Part shown: positions 12,001 through 32,508 of the stretch, piece after piece
Layout of the letters: each line of letters opens with the position of its first letter
Numbering within the stretch: position 1 is the stretch's first letter
Origin: Arthrinium phaeospermum
Taxonomy: Eukaryota; Ascomycota; Sordariomycetes; Amphisphaeriales; Apiosporaceae
NCBI GenBank assembly: GCA_006503535.1
Contig: QYRS01000019.1
Coordinates: 32,494-96,493 of the forward strand
DNA: 64,000 nt
Reading direction: 5' to 3'
Notes under the pieces: generated by a model
Databases searched by the model: none
What the model saw: the letters and a program-made list of their open reading frames with translations, nothing else
Told to the model about the DNA's origin: nothing
Position numbers and translations under genes: made by a program

Positions 12001-15000
12001 CAATTAAAAATGAAAATACAATAAAAATACCTAAATATATATTAATTGTTATTATTTTTGACTCAACAATATCTTGTCCAATTCATGGTATAGCACTTAT
12101 AAGGTTAGTAATAACTGTTGCACCTCATAGACTCATTTGACCATACGGTAAAACATACTAACTTACTTATATTAATTTATAAAGTTATAAATATAAGCTG
12201 TAAATACTTTAATCTTCGTATATCACATTAGCATAAGCTAAAAGTTCCGACTGTGCATTAAGCATCATTTCAGACACCCATCAGTGACCCAGTCTGTCGC
12301 GATCATATAAATAACCGACGATCTTGTACTATAAATATAAACATATATGTGTAAGTTTACTTATTACACATAGAATAATTTTTATGTATTTTGATCGTTT
12401 TCACTAATATTGCCAAAGAAAGTATTTCTTTCTTCAATATCCCTGTCGGGTTATTCTGCTTTAACGTATTATTTTTCTTTATAGATTACATAATAACTTA
12501 ACTCACAGGACTATAATTTTTATTCAAATAAATAGTACTAATTAACAACAACATTAACTAATATCAACTAAGCAAAATCAACAATTCAACGGTTTTTAAG
12601 ACATTTACTTACACTTTTTAAAGATCTATAGACAGTTTTGATAGAACAATTCAAATTTTCAGCTGTTTCTTTAGTACTAGGATATTTACCATGTATTGTT
12701 CGACCTAAATTCTAAACTATTATAGACTTAGAAGCTTTTTGCATATTTTATTTAGCTTGCTTAGAATAAACAGGTTTTTCTATTCCCATAATCCCATAAT
12801 CCCTTATCCCTTATCCCTGAGGGATTAAGGGTTTAAAGCTTTTTCTCTCATCAATTCTATAGTTTTAAAGGAAAAGACTTCATTTCTGTTTAAGCCACCA
12901 ATTCTGTCCCCACGATCTTGAATATAGTTCGATTTCATTTTTATTCTACTTAACTCACTATGTTTATAACCAAAAGTAGAACCAGCCTCAGTTAAAATAT
13001 TATAATTAGGTAATAAAGATTTTAAATAAAAATCTTCTAAGTTTAATAACTTTTGATTATTTTCCGCTGTAATAACTTCAGGGTAAATTTCTAGAATTAA
13101 AAAAGCAAACTTGGATAATTTATATTTTTTAACTGCATTTTTTAAAACTTTACTACCTGTTAAATGAATCAAATGATTAGCAAATCTTTTATTTATTCTG
13201 TTGGTAGAAGCTGACCCTATGTAATAATCTAAAGTAACTTTATTTAAAATTAAATATATACCACTGAGACCCTTTGTTTCAGTTAGTATGTTTTTTTGTG
13301 TAGAAGCATTATTTAAATCTTCGTAAACATAGATAGGTTCAAGATTTTTTTCTAGAATAAAATCTTTTAATAATTTGGAAATATTTCTAGAACCAACACA
13401 TATCTCTTCTTTTTTATTTTTTTTTAAAATACAGGAGGCATCATAAGACCTATCTGCCTCTTCAGATTTATCAGTATTATTTGATTTAATAACTTCTTTA
13501 TTTTTAGAATAGTTTATAGTATAATTTTTTATAGCTATATGTACCTTTTTCTCAAAATCTATCATAAAATTTGATTTGACATGATTCTTCCTAAATATTT
13601 TTAATTTAGGTTCTATGTATATAAGATATACGAGAATATATGTTTCAAGTATTGACTTAAATGTATCAGGATCTGTTTTAAAAGAAGGGTCTTCTCTTCT
13701 TTTTAAATTTAATACTATTTCATCTATCAAAATAGTGTAAAGACCTATTTTGTCTGCATGTGTACCTACTTTATCCATACTTGCAGGGAAGTTACATAAT
13801 TTTTTACTGTATTGTAATAATAAATCATAAATCTTAAGAGAATCTAATTCAGTGTTAATTCTACAGTAAATATTTGTACAGTTTTTTTTTGTGGAGTAAT
13901 ATCTTACACCTTGAGGTATCTTAACGAAGTTAAGTCTAAAAGGGTTAGAATTTTTTTTTCCGTAATGCAATTGAACTTGTTTTTGTTGATTTTGTTTTTG
14001 TTGATTTTGTTGTATTGAATAAAAATCATTTTGGGCTATGTAAAAAAAACCCAGGAAAGCTGTCCAAGTTCCGATAAACTATAACCTAAATTTATCTGTA
14101 TAGTATCCCTGTACTTTATCAATATATTAATCCCCGATATTTAGCTTATATCTTTCTAATATATCCTTTAAAGCCTTGTGTAATCTCTCTGGTTCTAAAA
14201 AAAAAAAAAAAGAAAAATTAGGAACTTCCGACTGTACATTAAGCATCATTTCAGATACCCACCAGTGACCCAGTCTGTAGCGATTAATATAATTAACCGA
14301 CGGTCTATAAACAGATAACAAATGTTTAACCGTTTTCACTAGTATAGCCAGGCATATTACCCAATACCCCTGTCAGGGTATTCTACTTTAGTTTTAATCT
14401 ACGACCTAACCTTTGTCCAAATCGTGGACGAAGGATTAATCAAAACTTTATATCATAAAACAGTATATTTCTAATTATATTATTGCATATACTCTAATTT
14501 CAAGTAGGACTTTTATTTTTAGTATCAAGTTAAAGATATCCTTCAAATTTATATTTCATTTCATCTATAATATAAGGTTTAACAATTAAAACTAAATCCG
14601 ACATAGATTGTTTTCATATACTAATTTTCATTGATGGATATGTCCTGCTTTTACAACACTAGTCTTAAGCCCAAATTTTTCATTAAGTATTTTACTTAAA
14701 TAAATACAATCCTCATATGAAAAACTGTTAGTTGCAAGGGAAATTCCTTGATTCTTTTGTCTAGATCCGTCTTGTTGGATTCAATGGGCCAAACCCATTG
14801 GTGTAATAAACTCTCCTATTCACTCTGGTATTCGTTTTATCATAATACCATTAACTTCATGATAAAATGAATTATAGATCCATAAAAAACTAGTAAAACT
14901 ATAGGTAGTTAATCTATAATTATACCGAGTTAATGTAGGATCTAAACGTTTATCGTTAATAGATTCCGACTTAACTACCAATTTAGGTGTGACAGTTGAA

Positions 15001-18000
15001 CAATAGCCTAATTCATGTAATAGAATATTCAGATGATGAATATAAGCAGAGTTTTTTACTCCTTGTTCTATACTAAAGCGTACACTATCCATCTGACTAC
15101 CTTTAATCTTATTACCTCATCAATCTCCTAATAATCCACAGATTATTATAGATAATGCGTCTATATTATGAGGACCAATTCTATGAATAGCCTTGGTTCT
15201 ACTTTTATTAAAAGGTAAAGAAGGAGAAATTACTAGATTATCTTTTTCTTCCCCCTTATCCCCAAAATCACCCCCCCGGATCCCTAAAGGGAAGAGGGGG
15301 GGGTCAGGAAAGGGGGACCAACTTGAGAAACTAAAAATAAATTTGGCCACAAACTAGCCATCATAAGGATAAGTATAACTGTTCCTAAAGCTCATACTAA
15401 TGTTCTTGGAGATCTGTAAGATCCGTAATACATTCCTCTTCCTATGTGAAGATACACTAAGAAAAAGAAAGCTGAAGCTGTATTAGCGTGTAAGTAACGA
15501 ATTAATCATCCATTATTAACGTCCCTCATAATATGCTCAATAGAATTAAATGCTTCTAGTACGTTTGGACTATAATGAACTAGAATAATATCACTCAACA
15601 GGTATATTTTATTTGAAAATACTATCATTATCCGGCATCAAAAGTAGGTGGAGATGGACGATTATTATCTATTAATGTGCTTAATAGCCCTCTGACTTCT
15701 ATAGTATCTAAATTATCTCAACTAGGAGAGACTGTGATATTATATTCGTCAAAGCCAGTGTTAACCTTTAGATCAAATATATGTGAGCAGAATAATCATA
15801 AAATTCTATTAGGTGATACGAAATTAGTACTAATATGATATTCTGTATTATCATACAAATAAGGACCTAAGCTAACATATGATCCATTAATATTAGAAGA
15901 GATAGGTTGATTACAATATACACAACATCGTACATCTGGCGTTAAGCCTGGGCAATGTATAATTATGCTTTCAATATTAGCATTGAGAGCATATAAGAAT
16001 TTCAGAGAGGACCCCGTAGGGTCATTTAAATCTATAATTGCTTTATAATAATCATTACCCTTCTTAAGAATTACAGGAGTTATATCTAACTCTAAAGGTT
16101 TTCTATTTTTTATAGCTATATGTAAAATAGCTAACAAACTTAAAATAATAGATCATAATGCTAAATAGTCTAAATTCAGACCTAATAATATTTTTATTAA
16201 AGCTAGGATTATATCTAAGCTATCTAAATTGAGATCATCTAGTTCGATCTCCAGCCCATCTACCTCAATACCCAGTGCTTCTAGGACCTCTCTTAATGTA
16301 AGCTTCTTAAGAATAACAATATAATGAAATAGAATATTTTTTACTGTTAAGTATAAAATTATCCCTTTCCCGAACCGTACGTGAAAGTTTCCCCTCATAC
16401 GGCTCTCCACAACCTTAATGTTCGTCGATTGATCAATGTTCCAATTAAGTTGATTTGTCTAATACTGTTTCTCTTTTTCTATGCTTCATCATGTGACATT
16501 GTCTACATAAAGCTATTCTCTTACGGTTATTTCTAACCATTTGTCTATCCAGATAGGATATCTTGGGATTTAGATCCTTCATAGCTCTAATGTGATGCAT
16601 TTCTACTCTGTAAGTAGATTCACATATACTACACTTAAGGTTGTCTAATGTGGCCGTGGATTTTTCTTGGTATAGTCCTCCGATAACGGGAGATGCACTA
16701 GTTAGGAATCTAAGAGTAAGCTTGTAGCTAGGCTTGAACAAGGATTTCCCTTTAGGGCCTGTTAGTGAATTTCCAAATTTCTTGTAGACTTTAGCCATAG
16801 TTCCTAAACTAAATTTAGCAGCAAGTAGTTTGGCACATGATTGTTTCAGGATGTATTCCGTGTAACTCGCTAGTCTACCATAGTTGTGAACGAAGTTATA
16901 GTAGTTAAGATAACCTCTCATTACCGAGTTATACAGTAGTATAATTTGGTCGTGTTCAAGGTGTAATCAGAGAAATTTAGGACTGGATTTACCGTTTTTC
17001 ATGAAGCTTGCTTGAGATAGTTTTTCATTTATCCTGTTTAGCGGCGCTTCAAGACGTAAACCTAGTTTATTTCTTTTAAGCCTTCTATAAGTTCCAATTC
17101 TGGAGAAACTAGTGTGATTGGATCTAAATATTTTAGTACCGAGGAAAAGTACTGCACCATCGTTCAAAGAGGTTACTTTGGTTTTAGTTTCATTAAGTTT
17201 TAGTTCAATGGTAGCTAAAAACTCTTTCACTTTGTTTAAGATTGATAGTGTTTCTTCTTTTGTACCTCTGACACCTATTACTCAGTCATCCGCATATCTA
17301 ACATATACTAATCTTTTCAATTCGTCGGATCCAAAGTCTGTCGCTGGTGCTCTAGATCTTTCTCCTATTAATTTACGTACTAGTTTTTTGTCGTTATTTT
17401 GCCTGGCTTTGAGTAAATGGTATTCGTAGTATCTACTTTCTTTAGATCTTGTGGATCTGACCCCTTGGTCGAAGTCAACCTTTAGATTTTGCATGTATTC
17501 GTCAAAAGAGTGCAAGAATATATTAGCTAAGATAGGGCTAACTATGGAACCTTGAGGAGTACCAATTATGTTGCTTTTGTAGGATCTGAAGTCAAAATAA
17601 CCAGCTTTTAGGGCTTTCCAGATAAGATTCGTAAACCTTCTATCTGATATTTTTCCTTCGATTATCGTCATCAATTTGTGATGTGAGATGGTGTCGAAGA
17701 ATTTAGTTAGATCTCCTTCGATAACCCATTGAACGGGTTGGAATTCCTGTTTTACTTGTTTAAGGGCCGTATGGCAACCTCTGTTGGGTCTAAACCCGTG
17801 AGAGCTGTCCTTGAACAGTGGTTCATAAATAGCTTCTAAGGTAAGTCTAATAGCTTCTTGAACAATTTTGTCCATAGGAGAGGCAATAGAAAGAGTTCTT
17901 GTTCCCCCCGATGCTTTAGGGATCTGGACTTTACGGCTTGGTGAAAAAGTGAATTGTTCACTTTTAAGTTTAGCCGCGAGGCTTTCCAGTTTTCCTCTTG

Positions 18001-18895
18001 ATATACCATCCAAAGTCTCGGGGTTAACTCCGGGGGTCATGTTCCCCGGTTTACTCTTTATGTTTTCGTAAGCATATATTAGAGTTTCAGTATTAGATAA
18101 TAGATTATGTAAATCCCTGTCTATTATTAGATCGTTTGCGGAATGTGATCTTAACGCGAGTTTATTTAACTTAGCACTTACGTTGGCTCAAGTGTCCGTA
18201 TCTCCTCCGGAGACATAAGTCCGGTTAAATAATAAAGTTGCTGCAATTCTTCCCTTTCTCTTAGCGTTACCTAAGCCGTATTCTACTCAGGGAGTGGTAG
18301 ATCAGGTACTATAATTGCTCTGTTGCCGATAGGAATTACTTCCCTTAGGCAATCCTGTGTTCAATGGCAATGTTCGTATATCTCCCTTAGATGCAATACC
18401 CATAACCTTAATTGTTCTTCCTGAACAACCTGTACTCTCTCCTTCTGTAGAAAATCACGCACTACAATTTTCTAAGAGAGTAATACACCTGTAACCGAAG
18501 CGTGTTCCCCATAGCTTGAGGGCAGTGGTTATTATTGTTTGACTAGTATGAGCCTCATCATAGGAGAAAGATCTTGCGAGATTCTCCACACTCGGGTAGT
18601 AGAAATTATTCGCTTTTAGCTGAGATGCTATGTTCAGCAAAGGGTTTTCCCCATTACCTAACTCAGATGATCTATTCGCAATTGAAGGAACGAATGTGTT
18701 TAAAACACACGACATTGTATTGTTACCACAGCGCACGTGCATAGCTAGTGTAACACCTGTTATAATTTGTATAATTAAACATAAAGCTAATAAAGACCCG
18801 AAATTTCATAAATAGCTAATGTTACTAGGCTCTGATGCATCAATAAGATATGAATTCACTAATTTTAATAAAGGATGACTTTTTAATATTCTCAT
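9002..18895 (-). CDS. cob: cytochrome b (six exons)
   Basis: Heme-bearing core of complex III. Exons: 18895-18737, 15574-15356, 14063-14049, 12157-12061, 10722-10390, 9339-9002. These sum to 1161 nt, 386 residues plus stop, the normal length, with no frameshift. Landmarks: start [35 protein letters not shown] (heme His), [16 protein letters not shown] (Qo helix), [10 protein letters not shown] (heme His), and [20 protein letters not shown], where PEWY spans an intron and uses UGA for Trp. Exon 1 is also followed in frame by a second possible 3' exon (16323-15628). Confidence 0.95.
9340..10389 (-). mobile_element. cob intron 5 (group I)
   Basis: Splits Trp-Tyr of PEWY (exon ends UGA-T, next begins AT). 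P7-like rev. GATATAGTCC near 10147-10156, 'gtctctgaggatcc' near 10210-10223. Ends in G9340. Confidence 0.85.
9406..10078 (-). pseudogene. LAGLIDADG endonuclease of cob intron 5, frameshifted
   Basis: The first half (ATG 10078) holds [12 protein letters not shown], the second half [12 protein letters not shown], the pair typical of the single-chain family found in fungal cob introns. Between them a one-base shift near 9868 brings a stop after HKEYFIMC at 9857; the other frame continues without loss to TAA 9406. Probably inactive, unless the shift is a base-calling error. Confidence 0.75.
10723..12060 (-). mobile_element. cob intron 4 (group I)
   Basis: After DIVE+T; the next exon starts TC-ATT-UGA (FIW). 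The core downstream of the ORF has 'agtcgttgaacg' at about 10898-10909, an element shared with the atp9 intron and nad2 intron 3. Ends in G10723. Confidence 0.85.
11104..12060 (-). pseudogene. LAGLIDADG endonuclease of cob intron 4, frameshifted
   Basis: Fused in frame to exon 4 through a hydrophobic lead. First motif [12 protein letters not shown], second [12 protein letters not shown]. The frame breaks near 11588 (…HNKIF / [16 protein letters not shown]), where a one- or two-base change separates the halves. Stop at 11104. Confidence 0.75.
12158..14048 (-). mobile_element. cob intron 3 (group I, ID-like core)
   Basis: Between the 15-nt exon and YVLPYGQ. ID-like core at about 12245-12335 with the 'aatgatgcttaatgcacagtcgg' block. 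Ends in G12158. Confidence 0.85.
12825..14048 (-). CDS. GIY-YIG homing endonuclease of cob intron 3
   Basis: Opens in frame from TAFLG, passes a Gln-rich linker, then about 200 variable residues and the GIY-YIG domain ([11 protein letters not shown], then YYIGSAS with the catalytic Tyr/Arg region), followed by the modular DNA-binding repeat [15 protein letters not shown]. Ends at 12825. A helix-turn-helix remnant ([20 protein letters not shown]) lies after the stop at about 12600-12690, so the C-terminus has probably been truncated. Confidence 0.85.
   Translation of the reverse strand, partial: FFYIAQNDFYSIQQNQQKQNQQKQVQLHYGKKNSNPFRLNFVKIPQGVRYYSTKKNCTNIYCRINTELDSLKIYDLLLQYSKKLCNFPASMDKVGTHADKIGLYTILIDEIVLNLKRREDPSFKTDPDTFKSILETYILVYLIYIEPKLKIFRKNHVKSNFMIDFEKKVHIAIKNYTINYSKNKEVIKSNNTDKSEEADRSYDASCILKKNKKEEICVGSRNISKLLKDFILEKNLEPIYVYEDLNNASTQKNILTETKGLSGIYLILNKVTLDYYIGSASTNRINKRFANHLIHLTGSKVLKNAVKKYKLSKFAFLILEIYPEVITAENNQKLLNLEDFYLKSLLPNYNILTEAGSTFGYKHSELSRIKMKSNYIQDRGDRIGGLNRNEVFSFKTIELMREKALNP
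14049..14063 (-). other. cob: cob exon 3 of 15 nt
   Basis: ACAGCTTTCCTGGGT encodes TAFLG exactly, in phase 0 on both sides, between MMA (exon 2) and YVLPYGQ (exon 4). Preceded by the intron-terminal G14064. Confidence 0.85.
14064..15355 (-). mobile_element. cob intron 2 (group I, ID-like core)
   Basis: Between MMA and TAFLG. Core at about 14228-14345 with the 'aatgatgcttaatgtacagtcgg' block; a poly-A/T-rich segment separates it from the 3' end. Confidence 0.85.
14530..15355 (-). pseudogene. LAGLIDADG endonuclease of cob intron 2, C-terminal frameshift
   Basis: Fused to exon 2. A Pro-rich lead encoded by a GC patch (15250-15320) precedes [21 protein letters not shown] and the second motif [12 protein letters not shown]. 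Near 14625-14628 an A-run one base short puts the expected ending ([15 protein letters not shown]...) out of frame. UGA as Trp. Confidence 0.75.
15628..16323 (-). CDS. unknown ORF fused in frame behind cob exon 1 by the group II intron
   Basis: Begins exactly at the predicted 3' splice site of the group II intron, in frame with cob exon 1 (…[12 protein letters not shown]…), and runs 231 codons to TAA 15628, only 53 nt before the true exon 2. The start resembles exon 2: VLEA followed by IE in both ([11 protein letters not shown] here, [11 protein letters not shown] there). Next come a Leu/Asp-rich segment ([19 protein letters not shown]), two hydrophobic helices and a soluble part with [16 protein letters not shown] (four Cys, possible metal site) ending PSPPTFDAG. 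No known family. A Cob-N/ORF chimera would be the direct splice product. Confidence 0.65.
16372..16405 (-). other. group II intron domain V
   Basis: 34-nt hairpin from GAGCCGTATG to CGTACGGTTC, the catalytic core hairpin of group II ribozymes. It fixes strand and the approximate 3' end. Confidence 0.9.
16445..18736 (-). CDS. group II intron reverse transcriptase/maturase with HNH endonuclease
   Basis: About 763 codons, in frame with cob exon 1, no break. RT domain: [67 protein letters not shown] and the catalytic YADDW. Maturase (X) region follows. C-terminal zinc [18 protein letters not shown] … [13 protein letters not shown] full retro-homing enzyme judged by motifs. Base composition is clearly more GC-rich than the neighbouring LAGLIDADG genes, suggesting later acquisition. 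Confidence 0.92.
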
Positions 18896-19477
18896 TTTTT
18901 TTTTCTATTTCTATTAATAATATTTAAAATTTAGAGCTATTTGTCCCAACAAATCTACACCCTTCAAATCTTATGAAGTCCTTATCTTCCCTTCATATCT
19001 AAATTTTAGTAGTGATAAAGGGACCAATTGGATAAAGGTACTATTTTATACTCTATTATGTATTATATACACTATTTTTCTATATCCCTATCTCTTATTT
19101 TTTTGTGCCTTTACCACTGATGTCGCGCAGTGATAAAGGGATATCCGAAACCGTCCTATTATCTCTTCGAGATTAGGGACTAGTCCCTATTGGTATTACC
19201 TACTAAGAGCGGTGATATATCACTATAAGTTATAATATTAAAATAAATCGGACTATAAAAATGTAAAAAAGGGTTTAATTCTCTCCCCCCCCCCAGATAC
19301 CCATCCCCTCATATATCATAGGGATAACGGGATCAAAAATAATGCAATTGTTTTGTAATAAACAAAAGAAAATATGATGATATATGATACGATACGATAT
19401 GATAGGATACCTATTTTAGGCTCCATAACTTCCCCCCTCTTATCTCGAAGAGATAAGAGGGGGGGACTAAAAAGAGT
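18896..19477. other. intergenic, cob leader side
   Basis: No gene seen. AT-rich, with GC patches at 19085-19145 and 19280-19330 (poly-C run) and the hairpin 'cttatctcgaagagataag' near 19438-19458. Confidence 0.5.
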
Positions 19478-19737: not shown

Positions 19738-20427
19738 TTATTTTTTTTGTGAAGGACCGGCATTCAAATCTTCACCTGATCTCTTGCTACCCGAAATATT
19801 GCTTGTATTATAGCTAGATTTACCTTTAGTTAAATCAATTTTTTCTTTAACCTCTTTATTTATAAATCTTTCTATATCCACCTTTTGTTCCAGTAAAGAT
19901 TCTTTATCTTCGAGTTGTTGTGGAGTTAAATTTGATTGATCCTCAAGAGCACTAAGTTGGTTTTTAATTAACTTTAATTGCTCCTTTTGGTATTCAATCA
20001 TTCTATTTTCCACAGCTATCTTTCTATTTTGAAAAGAATCTTTTCAATTTTCATCATTGGATGCAAATTGAAAAGGTTCTACTCCAAATATATCAAGTAA
20101 ATAAGGTAAGTTTTTAATAACTAGATATAGGAATAGAAGTAAATAAACTACTTTTTTTAATTTTTCTACATCAAACATGTACAAAGTGCAACTTGTGATA
20201 ATACCAGTACTTAATCATGCGATATTTTTACTTAATCTAATTGATCCTTTTGTTATTAGATTTATAAGCCCAGGAAAACCTAAACTGCTAGTTAACATAA
20301 CAGATTTCGGAGATAACTCATTAACTCTTGCTTTGTTCATAGCAGATTTAATATTTTGTATTTGGTTCAAACCATCTAAAGTAGAATCTACTTTAAACCC
20401 CCCTCCTCGAACTGTAATTACGAGCAC
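19738..20427 (-). CDS. unknown ORF behind nad5 carrying a diverged nad5 C-terminal helix
   Basis: About 229 codons overlapping the nad5 3' end in another frame. Residues encoded at about 20175-20290 (INLITKGSIRLSKNIAWLS then TGIITSCTLYMF) match the nad5 tail at about 20590-20690 ([19 protein letters not shown]…LY). Another hydrophobic stretch follows (VVYLLLFLYLVIKNLPYLL), then a long charged, probably coiled-coil segment (EYQKEQLKLIKNQLSALEDQ) and a basic end (GSKRSGEDLNAGPSQKK). No known domain. A translational shift from nad5 into it is possible but unproven. Confidence 0.6.
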
Positions 20428-30975: not shown

Positions 30976-32508
30976 TTACTCTTCTGGTTCTGATTCTGAT
31001 TCTGATTCTGATTCTGATTCTGATTCTGATTCTGATTCTCACACATCCTCAGGTTCAAAACCCTCTACATAACCCATTTTGATCATTAACCTGTAATTGT
31101 GATCACTTAATCTGTCCATAGTTTTTACTAAGCGTGGGTTATGATAAGTTTGTACTATTCTACCTATCCTGTCGTTTTCCACTCCAATATATGAAGTAAA
31201 AACATCATAAAGCGCACGAATACGACGATTACTGCCCAAATTTGACTCTAGTATACCTACTAATATATCTAAATTCCTTCATTCTTCATAATCTATAGTC
31301 ATATCCTCCTCTGTAGGTAAATCAAATTGTTGTGCTGTCTCCAGTCAATCTGATATTGCATCGTTCAAATGGTCAGGTAACAAGGGTATAGTAGAAAACC
31401 GTGTACGGTATGGGTTTGAATGTGGTCTAGGATTGTTAGCTTCATCAGATGATAAACTATTTCTTTCACTTATTGTTTCTGAAGTTGAAGACATAATTTC
31501 GACTTCAGTTTGAGTAAGTTGAGGAATATAGTTAGGTGAAGTTAAAGACAGAATTTCGACCTTAGTTTGAGGAGGAAGAGGTATATAGTTAGGTGAAGTT
31601 AAAGATAAAATTTCGACCTTAGTTTGAGGAGGAAGAGGTATATAGTTAGGTGAAGTTAAAGATAAAATTTCTAATATACTTACCGGTGGTAAGCTTATCT
31701 CCGAAGGAGATAAGTTAGGATTTAAAGGTTTAATAGAATATTTTCGGAATTCTGATTCTAAAGTAGTTCTTTGAAAATAAGAAGGAAAACATTGACTTTT
31801 AGATTTATTTAATATATTTTCTAATACAGGGAATTTAGAAAATATATCTAAAAAACTACGACCGGGTTTTTTAGAATTTAGTTCTAATTTATTTATATCT
31901 AAATTTTCTAAACTTTTTAGTTGAGTCAAGAATTTTTCGGACATAAAATCAAACCTAACTAATTCATAACTAAAAGATCTTATATTTATTTCTTTTTGGG
32001 CCTCCGGTCAATGATATGTATAAAAATAACCAGAACTAAAAACAAATATAATATTTAAAGTAACGCAAATTATTAATAAACTAGATATCAAATTACCAAA
32101 TTTTATTAAATTTTTTTTAGTTAAAGGCGTAAAATAAAATTTTTGTGCAATAAAAATAAATATTAATTCACCTACATTATATCTTATTTGTAAAAAACTT
32201 TTTAAAAGTATTAAAAATAGGGTAGAATCCTCAAAGTAAATATAAATACTTAAAGGTAAACCTACTAATACAACTAAAACAAAAAATGAACAATAAATAT
32301 TTATTTTATCTACCAAATCACTTTTTAAAAACTCAGGATAAACTTTATATATCATAAAAAATATATTAAAGGTATAAACCCTAAAAGATAAAAATAACGT
32401 GATCCTTCTATATAAAATACTAAAATTAAAATCATCACTGAATATGGAATAACTATAGCATATACTATAGAATAAAAATTTTTTTTTATCTTTAACTGAT
32501 TTGAACAA
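30976..32508 (-). CDS. unknown 511-codon ORF: membrane domain, 19-residue repeats, acidic (ES)8 tail
   Basis: Long intact frame (open a little beyond 32508, where a TTG would start it). The N-terminal 165 residues hold about five hydrophobic helices, ending GYFYTYHWPEAQKE. The middle holds a tandem repeat, VEILSLTSPNYIPLPPQTK, present about three times (31520-31690), then a Ser-rich stretch. A folded-looking region (RALYDVFTSYIGVENDRIGR, DRLSDHNYRLMIKMGYVEGF) leads to Trp-(Glu-Ser)8-EPEE and the stop at 30976. The tail is a hexanucleotide microsatellite. No family recognised. It sits between trnR and nad4L. Confidence 0.7.

Follow-up and report, generated by a model that had tools for sequence, protein, structure and literature searches.

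Nuclear introns presumably descend from group II introns, few of which are described as yielding different proteins by alternative splicing (PMC4424553, PMC3919590). C.te.I1 of Clostridium tetani joins one 5' exon to several downstream ORFs, as was shown in RNA (PMC3919590). B.a.I2 of Bacillus anthracis has two 3' sites that are 4 nt apart (described in PMC3919590 and PMC4424553), and Bacillus group II introns are reported with a 3' extension of 53-70 nt, termed domain VII (PMC3261151). In fungal mitochondria, "core creep" by alternative splicing has been described, in which an exon is fused to an intron ORF (PMC10448965, PMC7902536).

Here, we analyzed a cob gene in which a group II intron and two candidate 3' exons lie downstream of the first exon. 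Our main reading is that this mitochondrial intron would join one 5' exon to either 3' exon via the 5' strand of its domain VI. We give this reading, which draws on modeled pairing, a probability of roughly two in three.

The cob gene and the segment to be removed

The window, i.e., the whole 64-kb stretch of DNA that was analyzed, corresponds to contig positions 32494-96493 in a genome of 48.4 Mb and 19 contigs. We consider it mitochondrial DNA because it contains cob, cox1 and pieces of nad genes, and we translated it with code 4. In its Cob sequence, the locus resembles a Pezizomycotina ascomycete. Cob exon 1 (18895-18737, minus strand) has 53 codons in phase 0 and ends with ...ITGVTLAMH. 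GTGCG follows it at 18736, the intron start that was originally predicted, and the cob reading resumes at 15574, the start that had been assigned to exon 2. The first 57 codons of exon 2 occupy 15574-15404 (minus strand), and by similarity the exon extends to about 15356. Thus, the order on the minus strand is cob exon 1, the group II intron, an ORF that we call N, and cob exon 2. The remaining gene is seemingly intact, with Cob probe matches at 15580-15353, 12157-11969 (only the first part of which is exon), 10714-10394 and 9337-9020. An ORF near 14060 runs through the residues TAFLGF, and a few residues at the cob exon joins are unplaced.

A probe made of exon 1 and the start of exon 2 revealed no second cob in the 48 Mb genome (E<=10, best candidates scored). 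It matched two places genome-wide, and these are the two exons of the window locus. Because cob is made here as far as these searches see, and because N ends in a stop, 18736-15575 must be excised. We regard the removal of this segment, down to cob exon 2, as close to certain.

Several other features surround the gene. Two GC-rich inverted stretches were noticed by eye, one downstream of cob exon 2 (15270-15303, CCCCCCCGGATCCC...GGGAAGAGGGGGGGG) and one upstream of cob (about 19430-19467, CCCCCCTCTTATCTC...GAGATAAGAGGGGGGG). Also upstream of cob, at 19738-20427 (minus strand), is a 229-aa ORF that has a hydrophobic stretch and is charged in its C-terminal part; it matched no Pfam family at E<=0.01, and N had no match there. 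A 510-aa ORF at 30976-32508 (minus strand), likewise lacking a Pfam family at E<=0.01, adjoins LAGLIDADG endonuclease ORFs.

The group II intron and its recognition elements

Up to its nearer 3' end, the group II intron spans 18736-16324 on the minus strand (GTGCG ... CAT). The 5' end agrees with GUGYG, and the 3' AY occurs as AT at both 16324 and 15575. Domains V and VI, EBS/IBS pairing with the 5' exon and a reverse transcriptase/maturase, all expected of a group II intron, were also found. The intron-encoded reverse transcriptase/maturase/HNH protein (18736-16448, minus strand; stop at 16445) is in frame with exon 1 and has 816 aa including exon 1, with Pfam matches to RVT_1, Intron_maturas2 and AI2M-like_HNH. 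Among 7996 scored candidates, 483 were relatives of this protein at E<=1e-100 (best 120 listed), and those covering the exon read LAMH followed by VR, or in one case by AR. A relative with 39% identity is encoded on IMGVR_UViG_2648501160_000003, a 71 kb contig classed as viral (viral_contigs); none was found in genome_contigs. A search of the genome with the intron protein returned a single match. The third-position GC content of its gene (18600-16448, minus strand) is 0.41, compared to about 0.20 for the measured cob exons and N, and this contrast may reflect a recent arrival of the intron.

IBS1 (TATGCAC, 18743-18737, minus strand) ends at the last exon base and pairs at 7/7 positions with EBS1 (GTGCGTG, 18462-18456, minus strand), six of whose seven bases are in a predicted hairpin loop. 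We also propose an IBS2 (TTACACT, 18753-18747, minus strand) that pairs 7/7 with AGTGTGG at 18592-18586 (minus strand). This EBS2 is weak and only proposed, as it is located in a stem of the predicted fold and other matches of 6-8 pairs are present in the first 640 nt. The delta position is next to EBS1. Here, the A at 18463 adjoins EBS1 and could form an A-T pair with the T that opens each 3' exon; delta-delta' pairing is described for IIA introns (PMC4424553). None of these contacts, including the putative delta pair, would speak against either 3' exon.

Domains V and VI at the near 3' end

The Rfam model of domains V and VI (RF00029) matched the minus strand at 16407-16324 with 68.8 bits (cut-off 40; E 2e-11 within the 64-kb window), in agreement with the 3' site originally placed at 16324. 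Domain V occupies 16407-16372 in this alignment and is present in the predicted fold at 20-37 C. The 5' strand of domain VI (16371-16344) can pair, as predicted, with either of two 3' strands. The near one (16343-16324) has an A at 16330 (position -7) and leads to the predicted splice site to N; all of these features are on the minus strand. The architecture of the near local hairpin recurred in 453/3000 shuffles and its energy was matched by 36/3000.

A third intron in 15575-16323, a possibility raised by the original prediction, did not appear in the Rfam search (no intron family at E up to 10) or in the genome-wide RF00029 search, where no second group II domain V was found among the best 57 of 2964 candidates that were scored. 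With a single domain V/VI, a single intron protein and no Rfam intron in this stretch, there is no second ribozyme at hand, which makes a second group II intron there unlikely. These results also bear on the idea that the group II intron exits at 16324 and that a second intron or a trans partner removes 16323-15575. We consider this very improbable, as the last base of exon 1 is C, unlike group I 5' exons, which end in U, and the stretch begins with TATATTG and not with GTGYG. In its favor, tandem and nested introns have been reported from fungal mtDNA (PMC12308204, PMC7902536).

Predicted pairing of domain VI with a far 3' strand

The far 3' strand of domain VI (15602-15575, minus strand) has an A at 15581, also at position -7, and ends at the predicted splice site to cob exon 2. 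The near and far ends (ATTCTATTTCAT and ATTCTAGTTCAT, each followed by TATA) differ by one mismatch in 16 and are the two best matches to this motif in the 64 kb. Matches with up to three mismatches are not clearly in excess: they number 14, compared to 9.4 expected (sd 2.8), and 8/100 shuffles had as many. Over the last 48 nt, the likeness of the two ends is not significant (reached by 440/5000 shuffles, and by 1411/5000 that kept the AT content).

The repeat ATTCTA(T/G)TTCATTATA is thus present on both sides of N, as would suit recombination between the near-identical 16-nt ends, with a second type of mtDNA carrying an N-free cob for cytochrome b. This is the most improbable of the explanations that we weighed: the assembly shows one form only, and the 21-bp pairing described below would be left unexplained.

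The far end had been interpreted as a second end like that of domain VI but without a domain V. The proposed local hairpin is no better than chance. As a branch helix, it was rejected because the same architecture arose in 203/3000 shuffles of a 60-nt piece that kept the last 9 nt and in 183/3000 of a 64-nt piece; in a 58-nt piece, it was absent from the window's own sequence and present in 219/3000 shuffles. Its energy was equaled in 984/3000 of the 60-nt shuffles, and the architecture test is a lax one, as the count for the accepted near hairpin (453/3000) shows.

A helix of 21 bp (-18.7 kcal/mol, the A at -7 unpaired) is predicted between the far strand and the 5' strand of domain VI (16371-16344), and this pairing is better than chance. 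In this helix, GGGAAAGGGATAATTTTATACTTAACAG pairs with CCTGTTGAGTGATATTATTCTAGTTCAT as 3 + 8 + 10 bp. Equal stability was reached by 47/10,000 shuffles of the far strand and 97/10,000 of the 5' strand, and by 44 of 63,973 overlapping 28-mers on the minus strand and 53 of 63,973 on the plus strand, the site itself counted. For the inner 19-20 nt alone, the picture is mixed: 8/1000 shuffles were as stable, but in another test, which was weak, so were 292/6306 random 20-mers and 50/731 20-mers ending in CAU. The 10-bp helix at the tip (TACTTAACAG/CTGTTGAGTG) has, by eye, no counterpart in the near strand. Only two of 63,991 minus-strand 10-mers pair perfectly with the tip, namely the far site, in register, and one other; on the plus strand, three of 63,991 do so, including the antisense of the 5' strand.

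Folding of longer segments gave a similar picture. In an unconstrained 797-nt fold, the pairs of the far helix had probabilities of 0.69-1.0 (18 pairs listed) and the near hairpin 0.0. When the interior was shuffled, at least 8 long-range pairs were kept in 140/150 folds of this length. When the far 30 nt were shuffled, 18 pairs were reached in 3/150 folds and at least 8 long-range pairs in 45/150, so a certain amount of far-strand pairing is easily obtained. The minimum-energy fold of 868 nt contained 21/21 far pairs together with domain V at 20, 25, 30 and 37 C. All of this pairing evidence comes from the DNA of one genome. In these models, a helix between the far strand and the 5' strand of domain VI accounts for the far site better than a separate hairpin without a domain V does. 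The simplest anatomy suggested by the pairing results is a domain VI of the normal type whose loop holds an insert; this insert would consist of the 20-nt near strand, N and a short tail.

ORF N as a candidate alternative 3' exon

Beyond 16324 the frame is open and does not encode cob, as originally noted. The candidate alternative 3' exon, ORF N (16323-15628, minus strand), has 231 codons and a stop at 15630-15628, and 53 nt separate this stop from cob exon 2. N begins with TATATTG at the base after the near 3' end and continues the phase of exon 1. Met is absent from the window copy, in which GTG or TTG first occurs at codon 63. Three TGA codons are read as Trp. Among 12 aligned rows including the window copy, counting rows with a residue at the position, these columns hold W57 in 11/11, W176 in 12/12, and at the third W in 6 and L in 6. 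The third-position GC content of N is 0.20, compared to 0.21 for cob exon 1 and the start of exon 2.

The window copy of N matched no Pfam, NCBIfam or PHROG family and no PDB sequence, and two AlphaFold models were uninformative (mean pLDDT 39 and 46). The next best tblastn match in the window had an E of 0.27, and the single further match in the genome (E 0.11) was taken as noise. No DNA of relatives carrying N was found among viral_contigs and genome_contigs. The start of N (VLEA...IE) had been regarded as a diverged version of cob exon 2; this likeness is due to chance, since 1352/2000 shuffles align as well.

In a hydropathy profile of the Cob-N chimera, the first helix of Cob is followed by a linker with a weaker hydrophobic stretch and by an N helix that precedes KNRK. 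We infer from this profile a hairpin in the membrane with a C-terminal domain in the matrix, a topology that would obey the positive-inside rule provided that the weaker stretch is not membrane-spanning.

Relatives of N and their junctions

Among 5.8 billion proteins, a first search found 11 relatives of N at E<=1 (57-71% identity), and a profile search that scored the 7999 candidates with the most shared words found 12. On the strength of these 12 relatives, N is a real protein family. Judged by such counts (483 for the intron protein), the intron is common and N is rare. Strong family matches among 12 N rows were to cytochrome b families only, in one row each, which is expected because the relative P0002 has a Cob start.

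The relatives are known from protein letters alone. Upstream of N, two of the 12 have a same-looking intron end, three have a copy of the end of exon 1, and in seven the sequence is unreadable or different (P0012 has a different upstream sequence, and P0005-P0009 and P0011 start inside N). P0010 runs through plainly the same domain V/VI (...FYFH followed by YI) and P0001 through an apparent domain VI end (VLFH followed by YI), so the order of intron and N appears to be shared.

The junction copies are protein records as well. In P0002, a Cob sequence that ends with SIEH (residue 67) is followed by 32 other residues and then, immediately upstream of N, by a second ITGVTLAMH. Residue 67 corresponds to cob position 201 in the numbering of the window; a complex group I intron is reported at a site called cob-201 (PMC12308204). 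Decayed versions of the exon 1 end are located directly upstream of N in P0003 and P0004, the latter reading IIGVTLAMD. Identity to ITGVTLAMH is 9/9 in P0002, 6/9 in P0003 and 7/9 in P0004, values reached by 0, 1 and 0 of 2000 shuffles, respectively. The joining of the exon 1 end and N at exactly the predicted splice point resembles a fossil of the kind expected from a reverse-transcribed exon 1-N RNA, and DNA rearrangement could also have produced these copies. P0003, from a 31.5 kb contig, has in addition a Cob-like EAFHSVEH upstream of N (EAFNSIEH in the window and P0002), perhaps a duplicated cob fragment.

Junctions in relatives without the intron also fit a reversed history that is compatible with the same splicing, in which N lay next to exon 1 first and the intron later homed into the junction because the exon 1 target is present there. 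The third-position GC content of N is cob-like (0.20 vs 0.21), whereas that of the intron protein is 0.41. However, without the intron nothing seen here removes N from cob, and we regard this history as rather improbable.

One domain VI strand and two proposed outcomes

Taken together, the sequence, the predicted structure and the relatives best support a reading in which one 5' exon has two 3' splice sites. The choice would arise from the 5' strand of domain VI, for which pairing with either 3' strand is predicted. This retains the alternative 3' splicing of the original prediction, with the far strand paired to domain VI in preference to a separate far hairpin.

If the near strand (16343-16324) is paired, the branch point would likely be the A at 16330, and exon 1 would be joined to N to give a Cob-N membrane protein of 284 residues. 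If the far strand (15602-15575) is paired, N would be placed in the loop of domain VI, the branch point would likely be the A at 15581, and joining of exon 1 to cob exon 2 would give normal cytochrome b. Both choices would be served by the same domain V, 5' splice site, EBS1/IBS1 pairing and delta contact.

The near hairpin could form upon transcription, and the far one, which is predicted to be more stable, about 750 nt later. With one early and the other later and stabler, the product ratio would be set by the speed of splicing relative to that of transcription. In stepwise folding of the growing RNA, starting with the 5' strand, 18/18 pairs of the near hairpin were present at 48, 60, 80, 120, 200, 600 and 760 nt, 14 pairs at 400 nt and none at 700 and 780 nt. 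At 790 nt, the far helix had 8 of the 11 tested pairs and at 797 nt all 11, and the near hairpin had none. Forcing the near hairpin gave -187.6 kcal/mol and forcing the far one -196.8 kcal/mol; such energies are rough for long AT-rich RNA and take no account of protein and ribosomes. We put forward the timing switch as a proposal based on these folds.

Since the near hairpin has a probability of about zero once the far strand exists (797-nt fold), N might be made rarely or never. This preference for the far pairing suits the view that only the far junction is used and that the domain VI loop simply houses N as an ordinary intron ORF. From an ATG at 16398, within domain V, the frame is open into N in both the window and P0010, so N could be translated without splicing, and in this account it would be translated, if at all, from that ATG in unspliced RNA. 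However, N suits a downstream exon, with its exact phase at the splice site, its lack of Met and the A at -7 in the near domain VI, and it is joined to the exon 1 tail in 3/12 relatives. We consider exclusive use of the far junction unlikely, although less so than the reversed history. Returning to the choice between two 3' exons, use of the near site is likely, and we infer that both junctions are produced in the cell. A fuller version, in which domain VI is a two-state switch timed by transcription, the start-less N is expressed only as Cob-N and relatives keep the junction without the intron, is tentative, and we lean slightly against it as a whole.

Discussion

If this reading is true, a branch helix of domain VI that is completed by either of two strands would be a simple route for a ribozyme to choose its 3' site. 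A single start, transcript and intron would then serve both an orphan membrane protein and a gene that is essential for respiration, and alternative group II splicing would be on record in an organelle. In the literature searched, which included few subscription papers, we found no mitochondrial group II intron whose alternative 3' exon is coding, and no coding alternative exon inside domain VI or organellar group II intron so arranged.

The comparison with C. tetani in the original prediction holds for the outcome and fails for the anatomy. As in C.te.I1, the choice of a 3' site would link one 5' exon to several ORFs. C.te.I1 has four 3' exons, each preceded by its own domain V/VI repeat, and no intron protein (PMC3919590). 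At the cob locus, there is no separate domain V/VI unit before each 3' exon: one domain V was found, with one domain VI 5' strand and two 3' strands, and the intron encodes a protein and interrupts a core mitochondrial gene. B.a.I2 is also one group II intron with two 3' sites, which here are 749 nt apart with a separate exon between them. The Bacillus domain VII introns likewise splice past the canonical end of domain VI, but their extension follows domain VI and contains no coding alternative exon, whereas the insert at cob would be located within domain VI. Core creep resembles our case in the fungal mitochondrial setting and in the fusion of an upstream exon to a downstream ORF. It is reported for group I introns and endonuclease ORFs, while the cob locus would combine a group II intron with N, a protein without a known domain.
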